From Chloroflexota bacterium (GTDB taxonomy: Bacteria; Chloroflexota; Anaerolineae; Promineifilales; Promineifilaceae), in NCBI GenBank assembly GCA_024223125.1, contig JAAEOP010001277.1, forward strand, positions 1-27,055: a stretch of DNA of 27,055 nt. The letters run 5' to 3'. Below, piece after piece: positions 7,215-23,550 of this stretch. Each line of letters opens with the position of its first letter. Position 1 is the first letter of the stretch. Position numbers and translations under genes: made by a program. Below the pieces are notes generated by a model. That model ran no database searches, was not told the origin of the DNA, and was given only the letters and a program-made list of their open reading frames with translations.

Positions 7215-9878
7215 ATGGCAAAGAAAAAAACCGACAAATATGCTGAACTGCAAGCCGAATTGAACGCCCTGCCCCACATCAGCCCGGCTCAGGTAGAACA
7301 ATGGACTGCTTTGCAGCAAACCATTGACCACACCCGCGATTATCTCATTCGCGCCGTGCCCCAGGCCCAGCAAAGTATTGAGGAAGCGCAAAAGATTTTG
7401 GCCCAGCGCACCTACACGCTGGTCTTTTTTGGCGGTACGGGCGTGGGTAAAAGTACGCTTATTAATGCGTTATTGGGGCGTAATTTGCTGCCGACGGGGG
7501 CGGTCACGGCCGTCACCGGAACCATCGTCTACATAGAACAAGCCAAAGAAGGGGAAGCTGAATCCCTCGTCCTAAATTACTGGAGCAAAGATGAATTTGC
7601 CGACCGCGTGCGCCGCCTATGCCAGTTAGCCGAACTGTCTGGCTTCGATATCACCAACGCCGGCGAACGGGAACAAGCTCTCGACGATATCAAAGCCATT
7701 GCCGAAGAAGCAGAAGGCGCCGCCAAAACCGAACGGGATGAATACCTGGATATCCTGGTAGACTGCATCAACTCCTACGAAAATAATAAAGACCTCTTCA
7801 AAGCAGGTACGCCGCCGCCACAAAGCCTCATTTTGGATGATGAAGACTCGCTGCGCCACCTGCGCGAAGACGGCTTTAAAGGCAGCAACCAACGGCAAAT
7901 CCGTCTCATCAAATCAGCCACCTTCAAAATTCAACCCCGCACCGGACAGCCCAACCTGCTCATGAACGGCTATCTGCGCGTCGTGGATGTACCCGGTCTA
8001 GGCGCAGGCATGAAACTGCATGAAGCCATCACCCTGGAAGAGATGAAACGGGAAGACGCCATGATCGTTCTCGTGACGGACGCCGGCCGTCAGCGTGTGG
8101 ATGAGATGAAATCTTTATCGGCCGTAAATTGGATAAAAGAAAACCGGCTCTTCGGTCTTAGCGGGGGTGATTTAGATGAAGCCGCCTCCAAAATTTTCCT
8201 GGCTGTCAACGGGGCCAATGTGCGTCAGGCGTTTGACCGGCTCAACTCCGGCCTGCCCCAGGCTGAATTGGAAGTAAAAGAAGTGACCCGTTACGTGGCC
8301 CCCAACTATTGGGAACGGTACCGGGATCGCGGCCACAACCGCCCCTACTTCCTGGTGATGGCGCCGCCGGCCTTGTATGTGCAAGACCCGGAAAACGCAC
8401 CCAAAGAATTCTCCAGCGAAACGGAACGCATCATCAAAGTATTCAGCGATCAACTGGGGCAGATTGACGTCAGCGACCCGCTGGCCCCGGACAGTAAAGA
8501 AGCCCTGCTCAAACTAAGCGAAGTACCTTTATTGCGCGATAGTTTAATCGAGTTCATCAAATCAGAACGGGTACGCAGCCAACTACGCGAAGCGGCCACC
8601 CGTATTCGTAACTCTTTACAGGCATTGCGCTTCTACTATGAAAAGCAGTTGGCGCATCGAGGCGTACAGCCACCCTTTGCTACCAGTTGGGAACAATTGC
8701 AAGAACGTCGTTTTGAAAATGTACTCATCCGCCAACGAAAAGAACTGCCCCGTGCCTTCCACAATGCACTGCTGGAACTGAGTTCACGCAGTAACAGCGA
8801 TGAACGTTTCCGCAGTTTACTGCGCCCCACTCTCAACGGCATTAAGGGGTTGGTGCAGGATTCGGTGCAGCGAGAAGTAGATACGCTGCTGGAAAGTTAC
8901 GGCACAGAATATTGGGACGACCGCGATGTGACCTATGACAATCTCATTTGGGGAACCAGCGGTATTGAAATCCCCATCAAGCGTATTCTGTTCCAAGTGG
9001 AATTGATGATGCAGGATTCGGTGTCTCAGTTTATGCCGGAAGCGGCCGATGTGATTTCGGCCGAATTGCAGCGTACTCTGGAAGCGCATGAGATTTACAG
9101 TCGATTGGAACGAGCCAGCTACGACCGTGACTACGTTTACACCATTCCCAGTGTGGCCTCAGACGAGGCCCTCAATCTGGAAGGGGCTTACAATGCACTG
9201 ATCGGCCGTATCAGCCAAAACTTCCGCCATGTGTGCCAGCAAGCCACCATGTACGAACTGATGAAACCGGAACGGTCTGTCCATTATCGGTTGGAAGCGG
9301 GCGAACGGGAATTGGCTTTGAATACAAATGAACGGCTGTTGGATGTGGCTTTACACGGTGTCGATCAGGTGCGGGACGAGATGGCGGCCGCCGCTCCTGC
9401 TCTCGCTCCTTCAACTAACAGTGACAGCGCGGCTGCAGAACCGGAAGCGGCCGATGAAATAGCCATCAATATTCTGGACCAACCAGCCGCCCAGCCAGCC
9501 CCAGATTTTGACATCAGCTTCCTGGGCGAAGGCAGCGGCGAACCTGGCCCGGCCGACTTGGAAACGAGTTATGCCGATAAGCTAGACAACATTTCTGTAA
9601 AGGTAAACCGCGTCTTCGGCGACATTATTATGGACCTGTTCAGCGACGATGATCTACTGCCCCGTCTACGCCGCCTCTTCTGGCTGGAAGCGACCAAAGC
9701 GGAACGGGACTTTAACACCAACATCATCAAGCCGATGTTAAAAAACCATGACCGCAGCCTGCAAGACCCAGAACTGCGCCAGGCGATGGAAATTGACCTA
9801 GAGAATGTCTCTGACATGGAAGAGTTAATGCGGGTGTGGGAAGGATTGCACCGGCTGGAGATTTCAATTGCGGTTTAA
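7215..9878 (+). CDS. Dynamin-like large GTPase
   Basis: The 887-residue protein has a P-loop GGTGVGKS (73-80), a probable switch region with TAVTGT (98-103) and a G3 motif DVPG (258-261). The N/TKxD G4 motif is not clear; its place is taken by FLAVNGAN (328-335), so nucleotide specificity could differ. A long helical region follows, with an acidic and Ala/Pro-rich linker at about 725-770 and a helical C-terminal domain. No membrane segment is visible. Bacterial dynamin-like proteins act in membrane remodelling or stress protection; the sequence alone does not say which. A Shine-Dalgarno (AAGGAAGGA, 7197-7205) supports the start. It contains only one exact ACGGCCGT. It lies on the same strand as, but about 1 kb from, the ubiquitin-like cluster. 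Confidence 0.8.
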   Translation: MAKKKTDKYAELQAELNALPHISPAQVEQWTALQQTIDHTRDYLIRAVPQAQQSIEEAQKILAQRTYTLVFFGGTGVGKSTLINALLGRNLLPTGAVTAVTGTIVYIEQAKEGEAESLVLNYWSKDEFADRVRRLCQLAELSGFDITNAGEREQALDDIKAIAEEAEGAAKTERDEYLDILVDCINSYENNKDLFKAGTPPPQSLILDDEDSLRHLREDGFKGSNQRQIRLIKSATFKIQPRTGQPNLLMNGYLRVVDVPGLGAGMKLHEAITLEEMKREDAMIVLVTDAGRQRVDEMKSLSAVNWIKENRLFGLSGGDLDEAASKIFLAVNGANVRQAFDRLNSGLPQAELEVKEVTRYVAPNYWERYRDRGHNRPYFLVMAPPALYVQDPENAPKEFSSETERIIKVFSDQLGQIDVSDPLAPDSKEALLKLSEVPLLRDSLIEFIKSERVRSQLREAATRIRNSLQALRFYYEKQLAHRGVQPPFATSWEQLQERRFENVLIRQRKELPRAFHNALLELSSRSNSDERFRSLLRPTLNGIKGLVQDSVQREVDTLLESYGTEYWDDRDVTYDNLIWGTSGIEIPIKRILFQVELMMQDSVSQFMPEAADVISAELQRTLEAHEIYSRLERASYDRDYVYTIPSVASDEALNLEGAYNALIGRISQNFRHVCQQATMYELMKPERSVHYRLEAGERELALNTNERLLDVALHGVDQVRDEMAAAAPALAPSTNSDSAAAEPEAADEIAINILDQPAAQPAPDFDISFLGEGSGEPGPADLETSYADKLDNISVKVNRVFGDIIMDLFSDDDLLPRLRRLFWLEATKAERDFNTNIIKPMLKNHDRSLQDPELRQAMEIDLENVSDMEELMRVWEGLHRLEISIAV

Positions 9879-9927: not shown

Positions 9928-9959
9928 TTCCCAACTTATGAAAACCCTGGAGGAGTGTG

Positions 9960-10241
9960 ATGATCAAACCATTTGACATTGAATACACAGTTCACATCTG
10001 GCAAGAAGGCGGCCAGTTTGTCGCCCACGCAATGCCGCTCGATGTTATGAGTTCTGGGCAAAATCCGGGAGAAGCACGCGCGGCGTTAGATGAAGCCGTT
10101 CAATTATTTCTGGAAACAGCAACTGAAATAGGGACATTAGAAGATTTGTTGCTTGAAGTTGGCTATGAATTTTTTGAAGAAAAGTGGAATAGCCCAACTT
10201 GGGTGGCCACGGAACGACACTTTGCCACAGTAGGAGTCTAA
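9960..10241 (+). CDS. hicB: HicB-family antitoxin
   Basis: The 93-residue protein has the HicB N-terminal fold (YTVHIWQEGGQFVAHAMPLDV, then the ALDEAVQLFLETA helix) and lies 2 bases ahead of hicA. HicB binds and blocks HicA and usually represses the operon. No clear C-terminal DNA-binding domain follows, so repression may be weak or absent here. ATG 9960 is preferred over GTG 9957 because GGAGGAG at 9949-9955 gives better spacing. Antitoxin-first order is common for HicBA. Confidence 0.8.
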   Translation: MIKPFDIEYTVHIWQEGGQFVAHAMPLDVMSSGQNPGEARAALDEAVQLFLETATEIGTLEDLLLEVGYEFFEEKWNSPTWVATERHFATVGV

Positions 10242-10243
10242 AA

Positions 10244-10474
10244 ATGCCCCGGATTACCCCTGTTCACTGGAAAGTTCTGGAAAGGGTTTTCCTGAGCGCA
10301 GGATTTGAATTTATGCGTCAGAAAGGAAGTCATCGATCCTATACAAAACCAGGGATTTCTCGACCAGTTGTCTTTCCAACTTACAAGGAAGTGCCTGTTG
10401 CCATAATCAGGAATAATTTAAAAACAGCCGGAATTTCTCGCACAGAATATTTCAGGCTTCTTCAAGGTAAGTAA
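10244..10474 (+). CDS. hicA: HicA-family mRNA interferase toxin
   Basis: The 76-residue protein has the small dsRBD-like HicA fold with the conserved Gly-Ser-His (GSHRSY, His30) needed for RNA cleavage, and the C-terminal VPVAIIRNNLKTAGIS helix. HicA cleaves mRNA when free of HicB. The start at 10244 has AGGAG (10232-10236) inside the end of hicB, so the two are coupled. The frame is open upstream to 10199 but that would overlap hicB for no reason. Confidence 0.85.
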   Translation: MPRITPVHWKVLERVFLSAGFEFMRQKGSHRSYTKPGISRPVVFPTYKEVPVAIIRNNLKTAGISRTEYFRLLQGK

Positions 10475-10515: not shown

Positions 10516-10737
10516 ATGAACGAAGACGTATTTGGTAGTTTACTGGTCATATTTATGGCCGTTTGCATTACCATTCCGCTGTTTGCTTTGTACGTTTACA
10601 GCATCTTTTGGGCTTATAAGGACGCCAACCAACGCGGCAAATCAGGCTGGCTGGCGGCGTTATTAGTCTTCTTATTATCCTGGCCTGTCGGTTTGATTAT
10701 TTGGCTGCTGATTCGGCCGGAAGACAAAATTAAATAG
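10516..10737 (+). CDS. Small two-helix membrane protein
   Basis: The 73-residue protein has two hydrophobic helices (residues 8-31 and 44-65) joined by a hydrophilic loop YKDANQRGKSG, and a charged C-terminus. The layout resembles the PLDc_N-type small membrane proteins, but the match is by eye only. A ribosome binding site GAAGGGAG (10501-10508) precedes the ATG. It lies between hicA and the ubiquitin-like cluster; function unknown. Confidence 0.7.
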   Translation: MNEDVFGSLLVIFMAVCITIPLFALYVYSIFWAYKDANQRGKSGWLAALLVFLLSWPVGLIIWLLIRPEDKIK

Positions 10738-10910: not shown

Positions 10911-12134
10911 ATGGGGGAACAGGCATTAACCCTTATTAAACACAACCTGGATGACACCCATCTGGCTATTTTTGGCGGCCGTTTAACAGAATGGCTGATT
11001 GCTGACTTAAACCGAGATGGGGAAGACGCACCCGCCTTTACCGAATCGCGGGCCAAAGCGTTGCTGCGAGCGACCGGTTTTGTAGATGATCCTACGCTGC
11101 ATGATTTTGCTCGATTGGTAGAAAATGGGTCGGCCGTGCGCATCGCTCTATATGATTTATTGGACAGCAGTGGACTGGCAGACAATGATGAAATTCAAGC
11201 ATTAGCCGCTACAACTGGAGCTGCCAACGCAATCTCTAAGCCCCAAGCTCCAATCTCATGGCTATCTTTAACCATCGCCGCCCACGCCTGGAAAAGCGAG
11301 TATCCTCTGTACCAGCTAGACCCGGCCACGCCGCCAGGGGAACACAGCCCGGCGGGACAGCTTGTACGCCGCGCGGCCGCTTTTATTCGGCAACAAGTAC
11401 AGCGCAGCGCTACGGAACGGGACAAGTTGGGACGGAAGTTGGCTTATGAAGGGGGCACGGCCGTTTCCCATTCCCCCTCGTTAGAGCAACTACCAGATCA
11501 ACCTGACATGGCTCCCGTTCCGCCCCATTACCGCTCCCCAGTTCCGGTGAGCTACCCAGAATATGCGCGGGAAACGGTTACAGTGGCCGGAGATGAACCT
11601 GCACCTGCGCCGCAACCACCGTCGGTTACACGCACACCACCACTGACAATTACCGCAGAGGATATTGACCCGCCCGAACCGCCGCCAGTACGGATGCCGC
11701 CTTTGCAAATTACCCATGATCAAATTCCGCCAGCCGCGCCTCCACAAAGTCGAGTGGTTACGCCAAATTCAACGACCGGATCAGGTAGCAATTTTAATAC
11801 GGCCGTGCAGCGACGTTTTGGCGGCAAAGAACCAATGCGCTCCGTCAAACTGCGTATCGTTGTGCAGGAATATCATGAAGGGGCAGGGCTTTACGGTTTG
11901 CAAGTGCGTGTTAGCTGCCAGGGAATTAAAGCCCATGTCGCCGGAACCACAAACCGGGACGGTGTGTTTTTGTGCGAACTGCCGGTGCGGGTAAAGTCTG
12001 GCCTGACTTATGATGTGGATGTAACCTGGCCACGCGATCATGGGGCTGAAACAGAACGGAAATCTATCACTCTAAACGTAGATCGCACGGAGTTTACGCT
12101 GCCTTTCTTCTACCGGATGGCTCCCAAAACTTGA
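10911..12134 (+). CDS. Proline-rich protein of unknown family, first gene of the ubiquitin-like cluster
   Basis: The 407-residue protein has no signal peptide. Residues 1-180 are mostly helical. Residues 185-300 are a Pro-rich disordered linker holding two copies of a short motif, PLTITAEDI (244-252) and PLQITHDQI (264-272). Residues 310-404 look like a beta-sandwich of the carboxypeptidase-regulatory or transthyretin-like kind (VKLRIVVQEY, GLQVRVSCQGIKAHVAGTTNRDG). The same motif occurs in the CAP protein and the RING-like protein downstream. I do not recognise the family. A scaffold or a target of the conjugation pathway is an inference from position and motif. Residues 106-117 come from a CAATCTC-type repeat inside the coding region. 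Confidence 0.75.
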   Translation: MGEQALTLIKHNLDDTHLAIFGGRLTEWLIADLNRDGEDAPAFTESRAKALLRATGFVDDPTLHDFARLVENGSAVRIALYDLLDSSGLADNDEIQALAATTGAANAISKPQAPISWLSLTIAAHAWKSEYPLYQLDPATPPGEHSPAGQLVRRAAAFIRQQVQRSATERDKLGRKLAYEGGTAVSHSPSLEQLPDQPDMAPVPPHYRSPVPVSYPEYARETVTVAGDEPAPAPQPPSVTRTPPLTITAEDIDPPEPPPVRMPPLQITHDQIPPAAPPQSRVVTPNSTTGSGSNFNTAVQRRFGGKEPMRSVKLRIVVQEYHEGAGLYGLQVRVSCQGIKAHVAGTTNRDGVFLCELPVRVKSGLTYDVDVTWPRDHGAETERKSITLNVDRTEFTLPFFYRMAPKT

Positions 12135-12191
12135 GGAGATTGGAGATTGGGAGATTAAGAGATTGAATCTCCAATCTCTCAATCTCCAATC
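12135..12191. repeat. GGAGATT heptad inverted repeat
   Basis: Three GGAGATT-like units are followed by AATCTCCAATCTCTCAATCT. The whole gap between the 407-aa gene and the CAP gene is this structure. An open frame passes through it into the CAP gene, but the composition argues against it being coding. Confidence 0.75.
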
Positions 12192-12198
12192 ACATTTC

Positions 12199-12816
12199 AT
12201 GACGAACTGGCTCAAGCTGACAGATGCGGATATTGAAGGCGTCCAGCCGGAACGTTTAACCATTCACCCGGATGATTTGCCATCGGAACCAGCGCAAGTT
12301 GTACAAACGGCCGTCTTACAGATCACCCACCAAGATTTAATTGCCACAAATCATGCCATTCCATCACCTGATACCCAGCAATTAGCGCAGCTTATGTGGC
12401 AGCTTACTAATCAGGCCAGGCAAGCCCAACGGCTGCCACGCTTGTTGGGGACAGCCAATCTAAAGTGGCATCATGGGTTGGCACAGGTAGCCCGGCAGCA
12501 TTCCCAGGATATGCTGAACCGGCATTATGTAGAACATACAACGCCAGAAGGATTAACGGCCGTGCAGCGCATCCAACATTCTGGCATCAACTATATGGCT
12601 TGCGCTGAAAATATTGGTGTTGTCTATGGACCAAACAGCCATACCACCAGCGGTATTTATGATATTCATGATGCGTTTATGGAACAGCCACACGGCCGTG
12701 TTAACAACCATCGCAGCAATTTACTCAACCCATTGTGGACTCATGTAGGCATTGGCATCGCTTACAACATCAATGGCGCTTTATTTGCTACCCAAAACTT
12801 CATCTCTGCCATCTGA
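12199..12816 (+). CDS. CAP (SCP/PR-1) domain protein lacking a signal peptide
   Basis: The 205-residue protein has a C-terminal CAP domain (about 62-205) with the conserved residues His101 (QHSQDM), His113, Glu137 (AENIG), His171 (NNHRSNLL) and the HVGIGIA strand (182-188). CAP proteins are normally secreted. Here the first 55 residues have no signal peptide and no membrane segment. Instead they carry three motif copies: LKLTDADI (5-12), LTIHPDDL (20-27) and LQITHQDL (40-47). The start at 12199 follows the repeat; a longer frame would only translate that repeat. It sits between the 407-aa gene and the E1 gene on the same strand. I infer a cytoplasmic role tied to the ubiquitin-like pathway, unproven. 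Confidence 0.85.
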   Translation: MTNWLKLTDADIEGVQPERLTIHPDDLPSEPAQVVQTAVLQITHQDLIATNHAIPSPDTQQLAQLMWQLTNQARQAQRLPRLLGTANLKWHHGLAQVARQHSQDMLNRHYVEHTTPEGLTAVQRIQHSGINYMACAENIGVVYGPNSHTTSGIYDIHDAFMEQPHGRVNNHRSNLLNPLWTHVGIGIAYNINGALFATQNFISAI

Positions 12817-12871
12817 AACTTCTCACCTATAAGTGCGTACAAGACGGTGACAAACTTTAAGGACATTTAAT

Positions 12872-14071
12872 ATGACAGAAACGACAAACGAACAAATAGG
12901 TGAACCTATCGTCATTACCGACCCCGACGCCGACCGCTACCACACCTTTGGTTACATTAGCTGGTGGCAGCAAGAAGTGGTGCGTAACGCCACCATCCTC
13001 GTCGTCGGCGCCGGCGCTTTAGGCAACGAAGTCTTAAAAAACTTGGCTCTCATGGGCATTGGCAATTTGCTCATCGCTGACTTTGACACCATCGAAGACA
13101 GTAATCTCAGCCGCTCTGTCCTCTTTCGTGAAGGGGATCGGGGGCGGCGTAAAGTAGATGCGGCCGCCCAGCGCGTAAAGGAATTAAATCCAGACGTCAA
13201 TGTAAAAGCATGGCACGGCGACATCAATTTTGGGATGGGGTTGGGTGTTTTCCGGCATGTGGATGCCATCATCGGCTGCCTGGACAATCGGGAAGCCAGA
13301 CTCTCCATCAATCGCAACAGTTGGGCTATAAACCGCCCCTGGGTAGATGGCGCCATTCAAGAACTCATGGGCATTGTCCGCGTCTTTTGGCCCGGTCAGG
13401 GAGCCTGTTATGAATGTACGTTAACAGACCTGGATTACCAAATTATCAACCTGCGTTACTCTTGCCCCTTGCTGGCGCGGGAAAATATATTGCAGGGTAA
13501 AGTGCCCACCACCCCCACTAGCGCTTCAATCGTGGCTGCCTTTCAGACGCAAGAAGCTCTCAAACTCATTCATGATATGGAAGTGCAGCCCGGTAAAGCG
13601 ATAATGATCAACGGTCTAACCAATGACATCTATACAACTGAATATCCGGTAAAGAACGGGTGCATGAGCCACTCCATGTTGGAGCCGATTATTGAACTGT
13701 CGCAAGCGACAACGGCCGAAACCACCCTCACCGATCTCCTCGCCATTGCCCGCCAGGAATTGGGGGCTGAAACTGTGCTAGAATTTGACGGTGAGATTGT
13801 CACCACAATGGAGTGCCCCGACTGTAACGAAAGCGCTCCCATCTTCAAAAAGATGGCTCGTTTGTATGAACAGGAATCTATTTGTCCTAACTGCGGCCGT
13901 AAACGAGAAATGAACCTGACCCACCGCATTACCAGTGAAGAAGATTTCCTGGAACGCACCTTAACCCAAATGGATTTACCCCCTTTGTCCATTATTCGCG
14001 CCCGTAACGGCAGCGAACATGTTTATTATGAGCTAACTGGAGATAAAGAGGCTTTTCTAACATTTGAGTAA
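12872..14071 (+). CDS. E1-like ubiquitin-activating enzyme (ThiF/MoeB/UBA fold)
   Basis: The 399-residue protein adenylates the C-terminus of a ubiquitin-like protein. Visible are the nucleotide loop GAGALG (46-51), the DFDTIEDSNLSRS segment (70-82) with the acidic residue and Asn/Arg that bind ATP, and Asp137 in CLDNREAR. The region ACYECTLTDLDYQ to YSCPLLA (178-202) holds Cys179, Cys182 and Cys198; one of these, most likely Cys198, would take the thioester. A zinc ribbon (CPDC 315-318 and CPNC 338-341) follows. The last 45 residues (LPPLSIIRARNG, YYELTGD) may be a UFD-like module that docks E2. The next genes, a Ubl and an E2, make a conjugation role more likely than cofactor sulfuration. 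Confidence 0.9.
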   Translation: MTETTNEQIGEPIVITDPDADRYHTFGYISWWQQEVVRNATILVVGAGALGNEVLKNLALMGIGNLLIADFDTIEDSNLSRSVLFREGDRGRRKVDAAAQRVKELNPDVNVKAWHGDINFGMGLGVFRHVDAIIGCLDNREARLSINRNSWAINRPWVDGAIQELMGIVRVFWPGQGACYECTLTDLDYQIINLRYSCPLLARENILQGKVPTTPTSASIVAAFQTQEALKLIHDMEVQPGKAIMINGLTNDIYTTEYPVKNGCMSHSMLEPIIELSQATTAETTLTDLLAIARQELGAETVLEFDGEIVTTMECPDCNESAPIFKKMARLYEQESICPNCGRKREMNLTHRITSEEDFLERTLTQMDLPPLSIIRARNGSEHVYYELTGDKEAFLTFE

Positions 14072-14123
14072 ATGAGTAAATGGGTAATTACCCAATTACT
14101 TATTTACCCAATCACCCATTTAC
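14066..14123. repeat. GAGTAAAT-unit inverted repeat
   Basis: Tandem GAGTAAATG units starting at the E1 stop are followed by reverse complements (CCCAATTACTTATTTACCC, CCCATTTAC). The structure separates the E1 gene from the ubiquitin-like gene. Confidence 0.7.
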
Positions 14124-14144
14124 AACCAAAAATCTTGTTTATCG

Positions 14145-14152
14145 TATAAAAT
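14145..14152 (+). promoter_or_regulatory. Possible -10 box ahead of the ubiquitin-like gene
   Basis: TATAAAAT lies 42 bases before the ATG at 14194, right after the inverted repeat. No good -35 box is seen. An own promoter would suit a modifier that must be made in excess over its enzymes. Confidence 0.35.
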
Positions 14153-14193
14153 ATCGTTACTCTTTAGTACGAAAATTTATGGAGGCTAAAAAA

Positions 14194-14460
14194 ATGGCTA
14201 GCATCAAAGTAATTATTTATGATCCGACAGGGTCCAAGAAAACTCCGGTAGAACTTCCCGGAGACGTACCAATGCAGCGTCTGATTCCTGCATTGGTTAG
14301 CAAAATGGGTTTACCGACCAGTCAGGGCGCCAATCCCATTACCTACCGGCTAGACCATCGGTCATCCGGCAAACGTTTGGCTGATGATGAATCATTGTCT
14401 GACGCCGGCGTAACCGAAGACGATATTCTAAGCCTGTTCCCTGAAGTAACAGCCGGCTAA
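14194..14460 (+). CDS. Ubiquitin-like beta-grasp modifier (YukD-like), C-terminal Gly
   Basis: The 88-residue protein has the beta-grasp order: strand IKVIIYDP, turn, strand TPVELPG, helix MQRLIPALVSKMGLP (27-41), strand ITYRLDHRSSG (49-59), then LADDESLSDAGVTEDDILSLFPEV, the ubiquitin-like ending with an acidic loop before the last strand. It ends TAG with Gly88 free, so no processing is needed before activation. The start at 14194 has an excellent GGAGG (14182-14186). The frame is open upstream to 14080 but that part is repeat sequence. Direct placement between E1 and E2 genes marks it as their substrate. YukD-like proteins also serve type VII secretion, but no such genes are present. Confidence 0.88.
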   Translation: MASIKVIIYDPTGSKKTPVELPGDVPMQRLIPALVSKMGLPTSQGANPITYRLDHRSSGKRLADDESLSDAGVTEDDILSLFPEVTAG

Positions 14461-14463
14461 TTT

Positions 14464-14525
14464 CACTGTTCAGTTTGCAGTGTTCAGGGGGCAGTCATTA
14501 ATTGGTCTGCTTTCTGTTCACTGCC
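14464..14525. repeat. CAGTNNN heptad repeat with partial inverted arm
   Basis: Units CACTGTT, CAGTTTG, CAGTGTT, CAGGGGG, CAGTCAT are followed by CTGCTTTCTGTTCACTGCC, a partial reverse complement. It fills the gap between the Ubl gene and the E2 gene and is of the same type as the insertions in recD2. Confidence 0.65.
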
Positions 14526-14552
14526 GACCCCTTACTCTTAATTGAGGAAACG

Positions 14553-15083
14553 ATGGCCTTTGATATCCGTGAAACTAGATTGCGTAATGATTATGAACGA
14601 GTGCGTGGTCTAGTGAATCGTAGTGAATTTATACATATTTTAACGACGGACGGGAATCCGGTAGAAAAATATTTGATCCGCTTTACCTGTAAAGGCGTGG
14701 AAAAAATCAACTCTTCCCGCAAACCCATTTTGCGTGACAATCATGAAGTCAGTGTCTATTTGCACGCCGAATATCCACTGAAGCAGCCGCAGTTAAAATG
14801 GTTGACGCCAATATTCCACCCCAATATTCATGTAACAGGGGCGGTTTGTATTGGCGCCTGGTGGCCGGCCAAGACGTTAGATGAACTATTGCTAACTTTG
14901 GCTGAAATGGTTCAATACAAGAATTATGATCCCAAAGACCCCATGAACTCTAAAGCGGCCGCCTGGGCTTTGCGGAATAAACGACTCTTCCCTATTGATT
15001 CCCGTAATCTAAAAGGGCAATCATTAGAAGATTTGATCGTCCTCGGAGAGGAATCTGATGACTTCGGCATCAACATACTCTAA
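14553..15083 (+). CDS. E2-like ubiquitin-conjugating enzyme (UBC fold)
   Basis: The 176-residue protein shows a eukaryote-like UBC core: YPLKQPQLKWLTPIFHPNI, with His89-Pro90-Asn91, and catalytic Cys99 in GAVCIGAWWP. The Asn-to-Cys spacing is 8 residues, as in canonical E2s. After the active site come LDELLLTLAEMV and DPKDPMNSKAAAW, which mirrors the DP-DDPL-x-A segment of eukaryotic E2s. Asn91 would form the oxyanion hole. It would receive the ubiquitin-like protein from E1 and pass it to lysines with help from the RING-like proteins. The ATG at 14553 follows GAGGAAACG; an earlier start would translate repeat DNA. The gene overlaps the first JAB gene by 26 bases. Confidence 0.92.
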   Translation: MAFDIRETRLRNDYERVRGLVNRSEFIHILTTDGNPVEKYLIRFTCKGVEKINSSRKPILRDNHEVSVYLHAEYPLKQPQLKWLTPIFHPNIHVTGAVCIGAWWPAKTLDELLLTLAEMVQYKNYDPKDPMNSKAAAWALRNKRLFPIDSRNLKGQSLEDLIVLGEESDDFGINIL

Positions 15084-16308
15084 CAAAACCGAACGGCCGT
15101 CAGCCGAAACTCTCTCTCCCCCAACTTCACCCAGCCCAACGCCCGAAGAAGTGTTGAACTTACCGCAACGGCCGTCACCCCTGGAAGAAGAATCTTGTCT
15201 GCTGCATGGCAAACAGCCGGCCGCTGGACAGGTGGTAGTATTAAACAGCCAGATCGCCCTAGAATTGATAACCGCCCATAGCCAGAGCAACTTAGATGTC
15301 GAATTGGGCGGCGTTTTGTTGGGACATGCGTACCGTGAAGGGGATACCCTGGCGGTAGATGTGCTAGGCGCTCTCCCTGCTGTCAGCGATGATCATAGCC
15401 CAGTGCATTTTACCTTTACGGCCGATGCCTGGAGCCAGATTCACCGTGACCGCAGCGCCCAATACCCCCATCTGGAGATTGTGGGTTGGTTTCATACCCA
15501 TCCTGGTTTGAGTGTTTTCTATTCCAGTGATGATGTGGTGGTGCATTCGGCCGCTTTTACCCTACCCTGGCACATTGGTCTGGTGGTAGACCCTATTCGT
15601 CGTGAAGCGGCTTATTTCGGCTGGCTCCAGGGTGAAATCGCTCCCATCAACGGTTATTACGAATTGACCGATATACAGAAGCAGCCCATCACTAATTTGA
15701 AAGCTGTACGTACTTCTGTGTACGATGTACCAGAAGTAGAAATGTGGGAATCAGCCCATGCCAGCGCCCCTGTACTCGACCAAAGTAACACGGTCTATAT
15801 GCCGGCCAATCAACGGTTGATTTTAAACCCATCCTCCCAAAAATTGGGGCTAATAATTGGATCGTTAGCATTGGCGTTAGCTATATTTTTGCTACTCTTT
15901 TGGATCATCCCTCAAAATCGCCGCGCCACAGAGCTGGAAACGGTGCTGTTGACCCTGGCTGACAGTCAGATCAACCCCAATGCTCAATTGTGCCCAGACT
16001 CGCGCTTACGACTATTATCTCCGATGATGGGCACGGCTCTTCAGGTGGGGACTGAGTTCGATATTTTGGGTACGGCCGTTTATCCAGAAGCCGTTCGCTA
16101 TCGTGTGGAAACACGCCCTACCGGACAGGAACAATGGAAGGAATTGGGTTCACGAAAGCGAGGCGACCACTTATTAACACTGGCTACCTGGAATACAACT
16201 AACCATTCGCCGGGTAAGTATGATGTGCGATTAACGGCCGTAGACCGTAATAATATCCGGCTGCCCAACAGCCCACCCTGCCTCATCAATTTAGAATTAG
16301 TGCCATAA
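15058..16308 (+). CDS. Membrane-anchored JAB/JAMM isopeptidase
   Basis: The 416-residue protein has a Pro/Ser-rich N-terminus (1-45) and a JAB domain (about 57-200) with a complete JAMM metal site: Glu82 (VELGGVLLG), His146 and His148 in GWFHTHPG, Ser156 and Asp159. A membrane helix follows at 263-284. A C-terminal Ig-like domain (315-416) has Cys312 and Cys408, which could form a disulfide outside the cell. With the JAB domain in the cytoplasm it would remove the ubiquitin-like protein near the membrane. It overlaps the E2 gene by 26 bases and has its own GGAGAGG (15045-15051), so the pair is likely co-translated. Confidence 0.9.
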   Translation: MTSASTYSNKTERPSAETLSPPTSPSPTPEEVLNLPQRPSPLEEESCLLHGKQPAAGQVVVLNSQIALELITAHSQSNLDVELGGVLLGHAYREGDTLAVDVLGALPAVSDDHSPVHFTFTADAWSQIHRDRSAQYPHLEIVGWFHTHPGLSVFYSSDDVVVHSAAFTLPWHIGLVVDPIRREAAYFGWLQGEIAPINGYYELTDIQKQPITNLKAVRTSVYDVPEVEMWESAHASAPVLDQSNTVYMPANQRLILNPSSQKLGLIIGSLALALAIFLLLFWIIPQNRRATELETVLLTLADSQINPNAQLCPDSRLRLLSPMMGTALQVGTEFDILGTAVYPEAVRYRVETRPTGQEQWKELGSRKRGDHLLTLATWNTTNHSPGKYDVRLTAVDRNNIRLPNSPPCLINLELVP

Positions 16309-16319
16309 AAGGTTCTTTC

Positions 16320-17429
16320 ATGAGTACACAAACGACGCCAACATTTGTGGCTATTATCAGTTTAACCATGCCTGGGTCTGATGATCAATTTAGCGCCAAT
16401 GTGACGCTGCTGCCGCAAGATATGATTTCGGCCAACGGCCGTTACAAACAATTACAAGAATGTACCCTGGCAGATCTGCAAGCTTTTGCCGACGAACTCG
16501 AAGCGGATGTCTGGGAAACATATCAAGAAATCAAATTGTTAGAACTGGCTCAAAACGACCAGGTAGAGATGGAACTAACGATCCAAAATGCGACAACCGG
16601 CGACCTCGTCAAACCAGATGGCGCCTGGCTAAAAACAGTGGTGGTTACGCTTGACCAGCCAGAAGCAGAGGCCGTTACCGACGAAACAGAAGAGCCAGAT
16701 ACGGCCGCCGCAGAACCAGAACCCACACCAGCCGCTGAAACAGTCGAAGAAACTAAATCAGCAGAAATAGAAAATATACCAGAACCGGAACCAGATGAAG
16801 AGCCAGATATCATTGTTGCCGAATCAGAACTGGTGCATGAAGAGATTGAACTGGATAAAGCGCCAGACCCAGACACCCCCATCATTGCTCCCAGCCGGGC
16901 GCGGGTACGTATTGCTGGCAAACGTCGTCCCATCGGGGACCCCACCTGGGCCGCCGTAGATATTATGATCGAGGAACCGGCTTTACGGGCAGCTCAGGCA
17001 CACGCCCTGACCAGCATGAATCGGGAAGTGGCCGGAGTACTGGTTGGCCCGCCGCCTGAAAAACAACCCGACGGCCGTTACATCGTCCACATTCACGATA
17101 CCATCATTGCCAAACATACAGTTATGCATGGGGCCAGCGTCACCTACACACCCGAAAGCTGGCGCTATATGAATGATGTGCTGCGCGAACGGTATCCTGA
17201 CGACACGGCCGTAATGGTGGGCTGGTATCATACCCATCCCGGCTTTGGCATTTTTCTATCGGGGATGGATTTATTTATTCATCAGAACTTTTTTACCCAA
17301 ATCTGGCATGTAGCTATGGTGTTAGACCCCCGCGTCCGCAACAGTGGCTTTTTTAGTTGGAACCGGCATAAGAGCGAAGTACGGCCGTATGAATTTCCCT
17401 GGCCTACCTGGGCGTCAGGTTCCTGGTAG
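16320..17429 (+). CDS. Soluble JAB/JAMM isopeptidase with acidic linker
   Basis: The 369-residue protein has an N-terminal domain of unknown fold (1-112, beta-rich at first), a Glu/Pro-rich linker (113-190), and a JAB domain (about 210-360). The JAMM site is complete: Glu236 (REVAGVLVG), His304 and His306 in GWYHTHPG, Ser314 and Asp317. There is no membrane segment. It follows the first JAB gene by 11 bases and belongs to the same operon. The two JAB domains are clear paralogues in sequence but carry different accessory domains, suggesting cytosolic versus membrane work. VTLLPQDMI at 28-36 is a weak version of the shared motif. Confidence 0.9.
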   Translation: MSTQTTPTFVAIISLTMPGSDDQFSANVTLLPQDMISANGRYKQLQECTLADLQAFADELEADVWETYQEIKLLELAQNDQVEMELTIQNATTGDLVKPDGAWLKTVVVTLDQPEAEAVTDETEEPDTAAAEPEPTPAAETVEETKSAEIENIPEPEPDEEPDIIVAESELVHEEIELDKAPDPDTPIIAPSRARVRIAGKRRPIGDPTWAAVDIMIEEPALRAAQAHALTSMNREVAGVLVGPPPEKQPDGRYIVHIHDTIIAKHTVMHGASVTYTPESWRYMNDVLRERYPDDTAVMVGWYHTHPGFGIFLSGMDLFIHQNFFTQIWHVAMVLDPRVRNSGFFSWNRHKSEVRPYEFPWPTWASGSW

Positions 17430-17430
17430 A

Positions 17431-17517
17431 TGAGGGAGATTAGAGATCAGGCAATTGGAGATTGCAAATTCGTGTATAATGGCCTCAATCTCTAATAACC
17501 AATCTTCAATACTCTTT
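17431..17517. repeat. GGAGATT heptad inverted repeat with a promoter-like loop
   Basis: Left arm units GGAGATTAGAGAT and TTGGAGATTGCAA face right arm CAATCTCTAATAACCAATCTTCAAT. The spacer contains TATAAT (17475-17480). This fills the gap between the second JAB gene and the first RING-like gene. Confidence 0.65.
17475..17480 (+). promoter_or_regulatory. Consensus -10 box TATAAT before the RING-like gene
   Basis: TATAAT lies 45 bases before the ATG at 17526, in the loop of the heptad inverted repeat. No good -35 box at standard spacing (AATTGG region only). It could let the RING-like genes be expressed apart from the upstream operon. Confidence 0.4.
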
Positions 17518-17525
17518 TAATAACG

Positions 17526-17954
17526 ATGACCGAACAAGAATTACCACCCATTTCCATCAGCAATGATGATATTAAAGAAGCGAATCAGCTTAGTTTGCAT
17601 TGTCCTATTTGCGCCAATCCGGTAGAAAACAATGTAACCGAAGCCGATTTACAGCCGGTTGTGTGCCGTCAATGTGGTACGCTGTATCACAAAACCTGCT
17701 GGGAACTGGGCGCCGGAAAATGTGCCGTGCTGGGCTGCGATCATACTGAATACCGTTTGTATGGAACCCAAATGCGGCCGGTTTTACGAGTAGATTATCG
17801 AGATTTGCCGCAGTCAGGCGTCAACGGCCGTGTCCCCAGCCGCACGACCAGACAACTCAAACATGAACAACGCCGCCGGGTAGAACAAATGCGACAGCCT
17901 GGTCTGCTGCAACGTTTGTGGCAGTGGTTGTTGGATCAAATTAAGATTGGGTGA
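17526..17954 (+). CDS. RING-like zinc protein, soluble, E3 candidate
   Basis: The 142-residue protein has a binuclear treble-clef pattern: Cys26-x2-Cys29, Cys47-x2-Cys50, His55-x2-Cys58 (YHKTCW), Cys66-x4-Cys71, with His73 as an alternative last ligand. The CPIC, CRQCGTLYHKTCW layout matches the prokaryotic RING finger type predicted to work with bacterial E2s. Near the N-terminus is ISISNDDI (9-16), the motif shared with the CAP and 407-aa proteins. The C-terminus is basic and ends in an amphipathic helix LLQRLWQWLLDQIKIG. It would bring E2 and target together. Direct E3 activity is inferred from context, not shown by sequence. Confidence 0.82.
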   Translation: MTEQELPPISISNDDIKEANQLSLHCPICANPVENNVTEADLQPVVCRQCGTLYHKTCWELGAGKCAVLGCDHTEYRLYGTQMRPVLRVDYRDLPQSGVNGRVPSRTTRQLKHEQRRRVEQMRQPGLLQRLWQWLLDQIKIG

Positions 17955-18022
17955 TGAGTAACAAGTTGTAAGTCTGCAAGTGGCAAGTTTGCAAGTGACC
18001 TTATCATCCCATCACCTCACCC
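17955..18022. repeat. CAAGTTG-type heptad repeat
   Basis: CAAGTTG, TAAGTCTG, CAAGTGG, CAAGTTTG, CAAGTGAC units follow the stop of the first RING-like gene. The outer ends GGGTGATGAG (17948) and CATCACCTCACCC are partly complementary. Confidence 0.55.
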
Positions 18023-18024
18023 CT

Positions 18025-18447
18025 ATGCTAACCCCCGCAATCATTGATAAACAATCTCCTTTTTTGGGGGAAGAGTGTGCCCTTTGTAAAGACCCGTTTG
18101 CACCTGGTGAGGAGGTGGTCATTTGCCCGGAAGATGGCAGCTGCCACCATGCTCATTGTTGGGTCGCCAATGGGCATCAATGTGCCGCCTTTGGCTGTGC
18201 CGGCCACGGCCGTCTCTCTACCGAATCTCCCCACCCCTCGTCACCACAACGCACCGTCGTCACCCGGCCCAGCAGCAGCTTTGGCTACGGCCAAACCTGC
18301 CTCCTGTTAGCCATCGCCATCGCTATCATCTTCTTTTCCATCGGCTGTTTTGGCCTGTGGGCTATCGCCGACTATCTGATGCTCAATGTGTGGGATATGC
18401 CCTATCGTCCCCCCTTCTCCGGCATGATCCTTTTACTGACCGGCTAA
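18025..18447 (+). CDS. RING-like zinc protein with a membrane helix
   Basis: The 140-residue protein starts at the ATG at 18025; the frame continues upstream into repeat DNA. Its zinc pattern is Cys18-x2-Cys21, Cys34 and Cys40, His44-Cys45 (HHAHCW), Cys53-x4-Cys58 and His61 nearby, the same treble-clef type as the upstream protein. A Ser/Pro-rich linker (64-88) leads to a hydrophobic helix (about 91-117). It is thus a membrane-tethered counterpart of the soluble RING-like protein, just as one of the two JAB proteins is membrane-tethered. It is the last gene of the cluster; the next gene is convergent. Confidence 0.78.
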   Translation: MLTPAIIDKQSPFLGEECALCKDPFAPGEEVVICPEDGSCHHAHCWVANGHQCAAFGCAGHGRLSTESPHPSSPQRTVVTRPSSSFGYGQTCLLLAIAIAIIFFSIGCFGLWAIADYLMLNVWDMPYRPPFSGMILLLTG

Positions 18448-22134: not shown

Positions 22135-23550
22135 ATGCCCCAATCCCCAAAGACCCGTATCCTATTTTTTATGCTAATCCTGGTGGGATTAAGCAGCCTG
22201 CTTGCGGCCGGGTACTTATTGGCCCAAGAAGGGTACACCGTTTATGATGGGAATGAGACTCCCCAGGTTGTTTATGGAACTTATAAAACGGTTGGCGATG
22301 TCGTCGCCGCAGCCGGGTTGGAACTAAGACCGGAAGATGTTGTTGTGCCTGATCTGGAATCGGCAGCCGATGCGGACACGGCCGTTACCATCCATCGCGC
22401 CCAACCCATCACCCTCCGTACCGATGCCGGAACCCAAACCTACTTCACCCAACAGCGCACCATTGCCGCCTTTTTAGATGAAATCGGGGCGCTGCCACAA
22501 CGCACCGAGCAAATTTTTGCCGACGGCCGTAAAGTACCTTTTAATAAGATTGGCGCATGGCCACTGCCCATTGTGCTAGAAATCGGCCAATTTGTGACCG
22601 TCACCATTAAAGATGGCAGCCAGAAACAAACAATACACACGGCCGCCCAAACTGTGGGCGATGTTCTGCAAGAAATGGGCATTATTATTTATGCGGTCGA
22701 TAAAACAGAACCATCTTTGGGAACCTGGCTGGAACCGAATATGGTCATTCAAGTGCAGCGTTCATTTCCAGTCACAATTCAGGTAGACGGCCGTACCATC
22801 AGCAGCCGCACCGCTCACACCAACGCCCTAGACGTGTTGGCCGAAAACGGCATCGGCCTTGTGGGGTATGATTACATACTGTCTGGCCCCGACGCCCCCC
22901 TTCAAGCCGACAGCATCATCCAGGTCATCCGCGTCACCGAAGATTTTCGGCTGGAAGATGAACCTATCACCTACCAAACCATCTACCAGGCCAACGATCA
23001 GCTAGAGATTGACACAAAAGCTGTAGTAGGCAGCGGCGTTCCAGGTATTAAACGGCAGCGCATCCGCATTCGTTATGAAAATGGTCTACCCGTCAGCGAA
23101 ACAGTAGATGGGGAATGGGTAGCTCGAGAACCGGTCAATGAAATCATCGGCTACGGCACAAAAATTGTAGTGCGGACACTCAGTACACCCGAAGGTGTTT
23201 TGGAATATTGGCGGGTGGTGAAGATGCGGGTTACAGCTTATACACCATCCAGTTCTGGCAAACCGCCCGATCATCCGGGTTATGGCATTACTGCCAGCGG
23301 CTTACCGGCACAGCAAGGGGTAGTAGCCATTGATCGCAATGTCGTCCCCTGGAAATCGTGGGTGTATGTGCCCGGTTACGGCAAAGCGATTGCGGGGGAT
23401 ACGGGTGGCGGTGTACGCGGCCGTTGGATTGATCTGGCTTATGCTGACGACGAACTACAAGGCTGGTCTGGTTACATAGATGTGTACTATCTGACCCCCG
23501 TGCCCGCATCGGAAGATATTAATTTTTTGATACCGGACACTTTACCATAA
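22135..23550 (+). CDS. Cell-wall protein with DUF348, G5 and 3D domains (YabE-like)
   Basis: The 471-residue protein has an N-terminal membrane anchor or signal peptide (9-30). Several DUF348-like beta-grasp segments follow (from about YTVYDGNETPQVVYG; TIKDGSQKQTIHTAAQTVGDV; IQVDGRTISSRTAHTNALDV). Next is a G5-like segment (EPITYQTIYQANDQLEIDTK, ending GYGTKIVV). The C-terminal 3D domain (about 365-455) has AYTPSSSG, AIDRNVVPW and AGDTGGGVRGRWIDL. The 3D fold resembles MltA-type lytic transglycosylase cores, so peptidoglycan binding or cleavage is likely. Its stop overlaps the rsmA start by one base. yabE-like genes also sit near ksgA in Firmicutes, which supports the family call. The DUF348 fold is ubiquitin-like but unrelated in role to the conjugation cluster. 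Confidence 0.85.
   Translation: MPQSPKTRILFFMLILVGLSSLLAAGYLLAQEGYTVYDGNETPQVVYGTYKTVGDVVAAAGLELRPEDVVVPDLESAADADTAVTIHRAQPITLRTDAGTQTYFTQQRTIAAFLDEIGALPQRTEQIFADGRKVPFNKIGAWPLPIVLEIGQFVTVTIKDGSQKQTIHTAAQTVGDVLQEMGIIIYAVDKTEPSLGTWLEPNMVIQVQRSFPVTIQVDGRTISSRTAHTNALDVLAENGIGLVGYDYILSGPDAPLQADSIIQVIRVTEDFRLEDEPITYQTIYQANDQLEIDTKAVVGSGVPGIKRQRIRIRYENGLPVSETVDGEWVAREPVNEIIGYGTKIVVRTLSTPEGVLEYWRVVKMRVTAYTPSSSGKPPDHPGYGITASGLPAQQGVVAIDRNVVPWKSWVYVPGYGKAIAGDTGGGVRGRWIDLAYADDELQGWSGYIDVYYLTPVPASEDINFLIPDTLP

Follow-up and report, generated by a model that had tools for sequence, protein, structure and literature searches.

A conserved Chloroflexota gene cluster for a probable ubiquitin-like cascade with a membrane-oriented architecture

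The gene cluster

The subject of this analysis is a cluster of genes for a putative ubiquitin-like conjugation system in a Chloroflexota bacterium of the family Promineifilaceae. It lies on contig JAAEOP010001277.1 (assembly GCA_024223125.1), of which positions 1 to 27,055, the whole stretch analysed, are called the window here. Nine open reading frames (ORFs) follow each other on the + strand at 10911-18447, the strand that also carries the upstream genes of the unit described below, and encode an activating enzyme (E1), a YukD-like ubiquitin-like protein (Ubl), a conjugating enzyme (E2), two JAB proteins (JAB1 and JAB2), two Prok-RING proteins (RING1 and RING2), a CAP protein and a protein of 407 residues, p407. 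A preliminary description had already read these same-strand genes as a conjugation pathway; all of the ORFs are present, and for eight of the nine Pfam assigns a family that agrees with the earlier naming, p407 being the exception.

The E1 gene (12872-14071) encodes a ThiF-family protein (5.9e-51), in which Cys198 of the sequence RYSCP (codon 13463-13465) is the predicted active cysteine. It is followed by Ubl (14194-14460; YukD, 1.2e-10), whose C-terminus is PEVTAG. The ORF called mechanically has 126 residues (14080-14460), of which the conserved protein makes up the 88 from 14194 onwards, and this is the 88-residue beta-grasp protein with a free terminal glycine that had been picked out at the outset. 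The E2 gene (14553-15083; UQ_con, 2.9e-14) encodes an HPN motif at residues 89-91 and a predicted catalytic cysteine, Cys99 (codon 14847-14849); its start likely lies at 14553 instead of 14502, matching where its relatives begin. The E2 and JAB1 genes share a 26-base overlap and are therefore probably translated together.

JAB1 (15058-16308; Prok-JAB, 3.2e-9) has the JAMM residues E82, H146, H148 and D159, a predicted transmembrane (TM) helix at residues 266-284 and a further domain past the helix. JAB2 (16320-17429; JAB, 8.2e-9) consists of an N-terminal part, an acidic linker and a C-terminal JAMM region (E236, H304, H306 and D317), with no predicted TM helix. RING1 (17526-17954; Prok-RING_1, 1.3e-7) displays the zinc ligand pattern C26 C29 C47 C50 H55 C58 C66 C71 (17601-17738), while RING2 (17980-18447; Prok-RING_1, 1.8e-8) has the pattern C33 C36 C49 D52 H56/57 C60 C68 C73 and a predicted TM helix at residues 108-126 (18301-18357). 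Both Prok-RING_1 matches exceed the curated Pfam cut-off.

Conservation of the core proteins

A search for E2 in species-level genomes yielded 53 loci, 46 of them close (62-89% identity) and seven distant (39-45%), the latter from other Chloroflexota (five) and from Armatimonadota (two). Gene order was counted in the close loci with at least 1.5 kb of sequence following. E1 is followed by Ubl in 38/38 cases, Ubl by E2 in 41/41, E2 by JAB1 in 38/38, JAB1 by JAB2 in 33/33, JAB2 by RING1 in 29/30 and RING1 by RING2 in 21/30. The core order E1-Ubl-E2-JAB1-JAB2-RING1 is thus almost invariant across 46 related loci, and this conservation places the nine-gene locus beyond chance. The preliminary description had named in advance, as an outcome that would speak against it, that the genes are not kept together in related genomes; in the close loci their order is nearly invariant.

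The catalytic residues are equally well kept. The E1 motifs SCP and G.GALGN are present in 38/40 and 36/40 close loci, respectively, and the misses are fragments except for L039, where a complete E1 lacks both patterns; we infer that Cys198 is the active cysteine of E1. The HPN..G.VC motif of E2 is found in 46/46 close loci, and Cys99 is invariant in 10/10 aligned rows, one of which comes from Armatimonadota. As had been expected of a UBC protein, an E2 profile compared with the sequences of the Protein Data Bank (PDB) matches solved eukaryotic UBC proteins, the best at 1.6e-12 (Ubc1), an agreement at the level of sequence. The JAMM site is intact in 45/45 JAB1 and 34/39 JAB2 proteins, with four of the five misses truncated by the contig end and the fifth (L030) a short frame. 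RING1 retains its C4HC3 ligands in 33/33 cases and RING2 its pattern in 24/24, the fourth ligand position being Asp in 23 and Cys in one (L032). Thus, the E2 HPN and cysteine, the two complete JAMM sites and the RING-like patterns that had been noticed in the window hold up residue by residue and are conserved in relatives.

Ubl is better conserved than any other protein compared here. In a comparison of 15 loci where all eight compared proteins are nearly full length, its mean pairwise identity is 91.9%, followed by E1 and GTPase (an upstream gene product, see below) at 78% each, E2 at 77%, RING1 at 61%, JAB2 at 56%, p407 at 55% and JAB1 at 50%; RING2 reaches 53% in 13 of those loci and CAP 59% in nine of them. 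This pattern recalls, by analogy, the slow evolution of ubiquitin. The sequence TAG stands at or near the end of Ubl in 53/53 loci and forms its exact end in 49/53, and T86-A87-G88 is invariant in 24/24 aligned sequences, even where the remainder is only 36-43% identical. In four of the 53 loci, Ubl has a tail of 1-5 residues past TAG (Ubl genes with 1-5 such extra residues are those of L022, L027, L034, L046 and L091), and these proteins would need trimming before conjugation.

The family assignment itself raises the question whether the YukD-like protein is conjugated at all. Some YukD proteins are not, and since Ubl also gives weak EccD family matches, it might act in secretion or sulfur transfer in the manner of EsaB/EccD or ThiS/MoaD, with E2 and the RINGs serving otherwise. 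This reading is very improbable in our judgement: a stop codon frees the C-terminal TAG in 49/53 loci, the invariance of TAG speaks against it as well, E1, E2 and JAB1 are neighbours in all testable close loci, the catalytic cysteine and HPN are kept, and among the scanned proteins of the window, which do not include every ORF, no type VII secretion family besides Ubl was found.

RING fold and predicted membrane anchoring

A structure model of RING1 (pLDDT 79) matches mostly eukaryotic E3 RINGs, including RING1B, TRIM69, XIAP, Cbl, cIAP2 and Rad18, and 45 of the 50 listed PDB matches are RING or U-box proteins by title, the best with an E-value of 0.021 and a probability of 0.98. Together with the Prok-RING_1 match over the cut-off, these model matches, weak as their E-values are, indicate that RING1 has a RING fold. 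Furthermore, RING1 has CP[IM]C in 33/33 loci, and eukaryotic RINGs contact their E2 at a site compatible with it.

A simple hydropathy window predicts a strong TM helix in 24/24 RING2 and 42/45 JAB1 proteins, and the three JAB1 sequences without one are truncated by contig ends. The same scan found no TM helix in RING1 (0/33) or JAB2 (0/35). In distant loci, the RINGs of L050-L053 have 3-4 predicted TM helices (the scan excluded the RING-like protein of L047), and all six Armatimonadota RINGs have 1-3. Three of the five Armatimonadota JABs have a helix, and one of these three carries a LysM domain past it. Because anchoring on the RING side recurs in distant variants, we place the cascade at the membrane.

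Genomic distribution and flanks

E2 profile matches were found in 31 of 298 genomes sampled across the class, 17 of them of the close type. All 17 belong to one family, and exactly one E2 match is present in 47 of the 52 genomes of this family. Widening the search to the order brought in four more genomes; the close type was found in none of them, and the second type described below in one. Close loci are titled, for example, Promineifilum sp. or Ardenticatenaceae bacterium, and NCBI places Promineifilum and Leptofilum in Promineifilaceae. Screening 50,697 phage records with E2 gave no match, and 72,556 records of plasmids gave a single place, 32% identical. Species also have flanks in common: ahead of the GTPase, 12 loci have a GNAT gene, and two families lie downstream in 11 loci each, one resembling by eye an M32-type carboxypeptidase and the other a CBS/CorC-type protein. 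A single-copy, family-wide E2 with no phage and one distant plasmid match is more like core biology than accessory defence.

The preliminary description had taken a nearby toxin-antitoxin pair as a hint at an accessory region. This gained no support, given the single copy in 47/52 genomes, the shared flanks of the relatives and the outcome of the phage and plasmid screens. On the other side, the genes further out in the window (recD-, PEP-utiliser-, PRT-, G5- and rsmA-like) have no match in any of the 53 loci, so that its chromosomal place differs. An accessory or defence-island reading was thus set aside on the phyletic pattern and the relatives' flanks.

More generally, the system could serve anti-phage defence of the Bil, Bub or CBASS sort, with Ubl attached to phage or host proteins upon infection. 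Known bacterial E1-E2-Ubl-JAB operons do include defence systems, and PADLOC models are matched by E1 (E1-E2 models 1.2e-18, BilD 1e-6), by the JABs (JAB models 7e-7 and 1.6e-5) and by the GTPase (LeoBC 1.2e-10, LeoA 4.3e-9); the NCBIfam model 6A-MBL cap2_3 is matched by E1 (3.5e-11) and JAB1 (2.2e-5), both far below the cut-off. These matches are family resemblances which, with the toxin-antitoxin pair and the window's unusual outer flanks, keep this explanation alive. However, PADLOC gave no match for Ubl, E2, the RINGs or p407, no CD-NTase was found among the scanned proteins, and neither the single copy per genome within one family nor the shared flanks fit such a role, which we consider quite unlikely.

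Family-wide presence and the ubiquitin-like conservation of Ubl would also suit a cytoplasmic housekeeping cascade that serves mainly for degradation by a general protease, its membrane anchoring being incidental. This is unlikely, too. A proteasome/HslV match (PF00227, at 1e-8) occurs in just 3 of the 298 class genomes and in none of the 31 with an E2 match, such that these relatives, to which the count applies, lack the mark of proteasome-linked tagging; and the predicted membrane-anchored RINGs recur in distant variants. The family-wide presence without signs of mobility, the predicted anchored RINGs and the conservation of Ubl rather suggest an ordinary cellular function.

Upstream and optional genes

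The unit most likely is larger than 10911-18447 and begins at 7215 with a gene for a dynamin-like GTPase of 887 residues (7215-9878; Dynamin_N, 3.6e-13), because such a GTPase precedes p407 in 18/19 loci where p407 has upstream room. Between the two lie a hicB-hicA pair and a small two-helix protein. The extent given in the preliminary description therefore stands for the nine genes, while the GTPase and the membrane helices had been overlooked.

p407 itself (10911-12134), which is found before E1 in 22 of the 32 close loci with room, has a helical N-terminal part (residues 1-176), a disordered linker with two short motifs and a C-terminal beta-sandwich. The sandwich (residues 307-406) is transthyretin/CnaB-like according to a structure model; the fold search, which effectively tested this part only, assigned no fold to the N-terminal part. 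The whole protein has no Pfam match, nor was a Pfam domain found on the best 120 of 594 p407 relatives. The CAP-domain protein (12163-12816; Pfam CAP, 4.8e-14), with a possible ATG start at 12199, is an optional part, present before E1 in 14/37 loci. The small protein of 73 residues (10516-10737), with two TM helices predicted from hydropathy, is an occasional member whose relatives stand between GTPase and p407 in four loci. The hicB-hicA pair (9957-10474; HicA_toxin, 1.2e-11; the hicB-like ORF has no Pfam match) has just one parallel in the 93 loci scanned, in L055, there too between GTPase and p407, and is probably an insertion and not part of the system.

In the sample of 298 class genomes, the 17 that have the close-type E2 are also those with long GTPase matches (E-value 0), while three others have weak ones (28-31%). 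We rejected this perfect co-occurrence as proof of function because all 17 genomes belong to one family and kinship alone could give it. Within the 52 family genomes, the GTPase is found in 47: E2 and GTPase occur together in 42, E2 only in five and GTPase only in five, with some of the GTPase matches being fragments. A functional link of the GTPase to tagging may nevertheless exist.

Two further features of the window lie apart from the unit. An ORF of 252 residues at 1043-1801 resembles, by eye, a REP-type Y1 transposase and is without a Pfam match at 0.001. At 22135-23550, a protein with three DUF348 (G5-linked ubiquitin-like) stretches and with G5 and 3D domains adjoins a gene that is rsmA-like by eye.

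Distant variants

A second type in Chloroflexota (L047, L050-L053, L081-L085 and L087-L089) has a Ubl domain fused in frame to the N-terminus of E2, plus a separate Ubl. An intact TAG lies between the fused Ubl and E2 in 13 of the 14 readable ORFs (18 loci given), and the fourteenth begins near a contig edge. The arrangement resembles that of ubiquitin precursors, and by this analogy suggests cleavage by a JAB. The E1 of L050 has an N-terminal GntR helix-turn-helix, and FHA-family and VWA genes come next in several of these loci.

In Armatimonadota, two operons (L048:10001-18618 and L049:3375-12643) each encode two E2s, three RINGs with TM helices, and JABs, one with LysM. The operons also include a gene for a trypsin-like protease, placed between those for E2 and Ubl, as well as one for a membrane FHA protein. 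In a cyanobacterium, Crinalium epipsammum PCC 9333, an operon on plasmid pCRI9333.03 (L109:7254-14329) contains E1, two Ubl-like genes, E2 and a JAB with a TM helix, and Pfam detects no RING among the seven proteins scanned.

Short motifs shared between proteins

Short motifs may be common to proteins of the same operon that are otherwise unrelated. In the window, [LI].I[TSH].[DE][DEQ][IL] or a close version occurs twice in p407, twice in CAP and in RING1 (11643-11726, 12256-12339 and 17550-17573), and the candidate [LI].IT.DD[IL] is kept in p407, CAP and RING1 of relatives. The pattern [ILVM].[IVL][TSH].[DENQ][DENQ][ILV], which was composed with knowledge of the window sequence and of the alignments for p407 and RING1, is present in 22/25 p407, 13/15 CAP and 28/33 RING1 proteins as compared to 13/280 neighbouring proteins; it is found in 2/39 JAB2 proteins and in none of the other six families. 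A second pattern, [DE][DE][LIFV].[IV].[LIFYV], occurs in 39/46 E2 (mostly as DD.GINI) and 11/21 GTPase sequences, compared to 19/280 neighbours.

An unbiased scan of 18 operons at two settings, with the full and a reduced alphabet, was compared with shuffled sequences. For the window, the observed level was reached by 24/40 and 25/25 shuffles. In an alignment-based scan of the window's group, I[ST].[DE][DE]I ranked first, with four protein classes at 60% of orthologues, and 7/25 column shuffles also gave four classes. The motif is thus suggestive only in the window. Distant operons fared better. In the Crinalium operon, L.WRD occurs in four of the seven protein classes, and the level observed for L.WRD and LNWR was reached by 0/40 shuffles (5/25 with the reduced alphabet). 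For DDL.I in Armatimonadota the figures are 1/40 and 2/25 in L048, and 2/40 in L049, where the reduced pattern DDDI.I.I gave 0/25. Low shuffle counts were also seen with other patterns in L010 and L016 (1/40 each), L014 (2/40) and L045, L050 and L051 (1-2/25); L047 gave 0/40 and 0/25, and there Ubl and the E2 fusion share the Ubl domain. For the second type, a basic variant of the motif did not convince, since L047 alone had a [KR][IVL][KR][LIV] count above that of all shuffles. Shared motifs could be accounted for by a common docking partner, which we offer as an idea only.

A proposed pathway

The reading of the locus as an E1-E2-RING-JAB-Ubl pathway, put forward in the preliminary description, has gained support from protein families, conserved catalytic residues, synteny and the RING-type model. 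Judged by these sequence features, the locus, which encodes homologues of every part, probably specifies a membrane-tethered cascade of Ubl conjugation and deconjugation. E1 would adenylate Gly88 of Ubl and then hold Ubl on Cys198, from where it would move to Cys99 of E2. The charged E2 would be bound by the soluble RING1 and the membrane-anchored RING2, which would direct Ubl to lysine residues on proteins in or close to the membrane, these substrates and the conjugation itself being presumed. Membrane-anchored JAB1 and soluble JAB2 would remove Ubl again, and a JAB would also carry out the maturation of Ubl in those species that have a tailed or E2-fused form. More speculatively, GTPase and p407 might act on the same membrane, and tagging might control the turnover of envelope proteins or membrane remodelling.

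Several observations weigh against this picture or parts of it. The C-terminus of Ubl has only one Gly, not every Prok-RING domain has to be an E3, none of the listed fold matches of the RING1 model lies under an E-value of 0.001, and a RING1 profile found no RING among solved sequences. RING2 is unrecognised after RING1 in 9/30 loci, and a second-type genome with an E2 match (G041) has no Prok-RING_1 match at 1e-5. The TM calls come from a hydropathy window and not from a dedicated predictor. As to the upstream genes, p407 is not found before E1 in 10/32 loci, and the GTPase was not found in 5/52 family genomes; in 14 genomes chosen for having no GTPase at the locus, it lies elsewhere in ten and was not found in four. 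Three of the five family genomes in which the GTPase was not found, G011, G334 and G335 (by coordinates L043, L042 and L044), are also without RING2, and L043 is without p407 as well. The 17-for-17 co-occurrence of GTPase and E2 is confounded by kinship, as discussed above. Since completeness figures for the family genomes are not given, absences may be assembly gaps.

A bolder version of the membrane-tethered cascade would be a constitutive membrane ubiquitin system, in which the anchored RINGs and the deubiquitinase-like JAB mark sites or proteins for the dynamin-like GTPase, and the parts meet via operon-specific short tags borne by proteins that are unrelated in other respects. We regard it as rather doubtful. 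If true, it would be a bacterial counterpart of ubiquitin-directed membrane remodelling. In either form, the locus offers a defined set of proteins for testing whether E3-directed membrane tagging exists in bacteria.

Comparison with known systems

Bacterial E1-E2-RING-JAB-YukD clusters with Prok-RING_1 (PF14446) were reportedly predicted by Burroughs, Iyer and Aravind in 2011. The present locus has all of these gene kinds in one operon, with catalytic residues intact, and it shares with the earlier clusters the gene kinds and the RING family. It would differ from them in having two JABs, two RINGs, p407, CAP and the GTPase, in its near family-wide presence and in the Ubl-E2 fusions of the second type. 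The Pfam text on Prok-RING_1 is reported to mention TM helices in bacterial versions already. In a sample of 400 genomes from the phylum, 26 contain this family. Among eukaryotic membrane RING ligases, MARCH/RING-CH proteins combine a C4HC3 RING with TM helices and act on membrane proteins; the likeness to our locus is one of arrangement only, the gene set being unrelated.

In bacteria, defence operons are the main setting in which ubiquitin-like conjugation is known. The functions E1, E2, Ubl and JAB are common to the locus, Bil and type II CBASS. In contrast, E1 and E2 are separate genes here and RING proteins are present. Type II CBASS has a CD-NTase and an E1-E2 fusion (Cap2), and no CD-NTase was found among the scanned proteins. 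Clear PADLOC matches among the nine genes are confined to E1 and the JABs, with CAP at 0.046. The Bil models in PADLOC recognise E1 through BilD only and neither Ubl nor E2, in a library whose coverage of Bil models was not checked. The Bub operons are likewise bacterial, ubiquitination-like and of unproven defence role; they are described as putative immunity operons, many linked to CapW, CapH/CapP or CapK/CapS regulators, and the word RING is absent from the main text (PMC13373217), whereas the set described here is family-wide and includes RINGs.

An experimental parallel is archaeal. In Caldiarchaeum subterraneum, an E1/E2/RING cascade was reconstituted, and that report mentions bacterial E2 and E3 homologues and some complete operons (James 2017, PMC5654768). 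Genes for Ub, E1, E2 and a small RING form the archaeal operon, which lies beside an Rpn11/JAMM gene whose protease trims pro-ubiquitin. Once trimmed, the archaeal Ub has a Gly-Gly terminus, and the RING of that system is C3H2C3, whereas in the cascade predicted here the end is TAG, the RING is C4HC3 and Ubl has no tail in most species. Other studies describe prokaryotic C4HC3 RINGs (PMC11354881) and a Simkania RING ligase set against the ubiquitin system of its host (PMC12591485), and Grau-Bove 2014 (PMC4327156) analysed bacterial genomes without finding a complete toolkit. In this limited and mostly open-access literature, bacterial conjugation in which E1, E2 and RING are all native is predicted, and we found no demonstration of it.

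In sum, the locus is real and conserved and probably functions as a ubiquitin-like cascade of a kind that had been predicted before; its architecture is larger and more oriented towards the membrane than the preliminary description stated. What appears to be new is this extended architecture, its family-wide presence, the Ubl-E2 fusions that keep the TAG end, and the operon-specific shared motifs, which are supported in distant relatives and not significant in the window.

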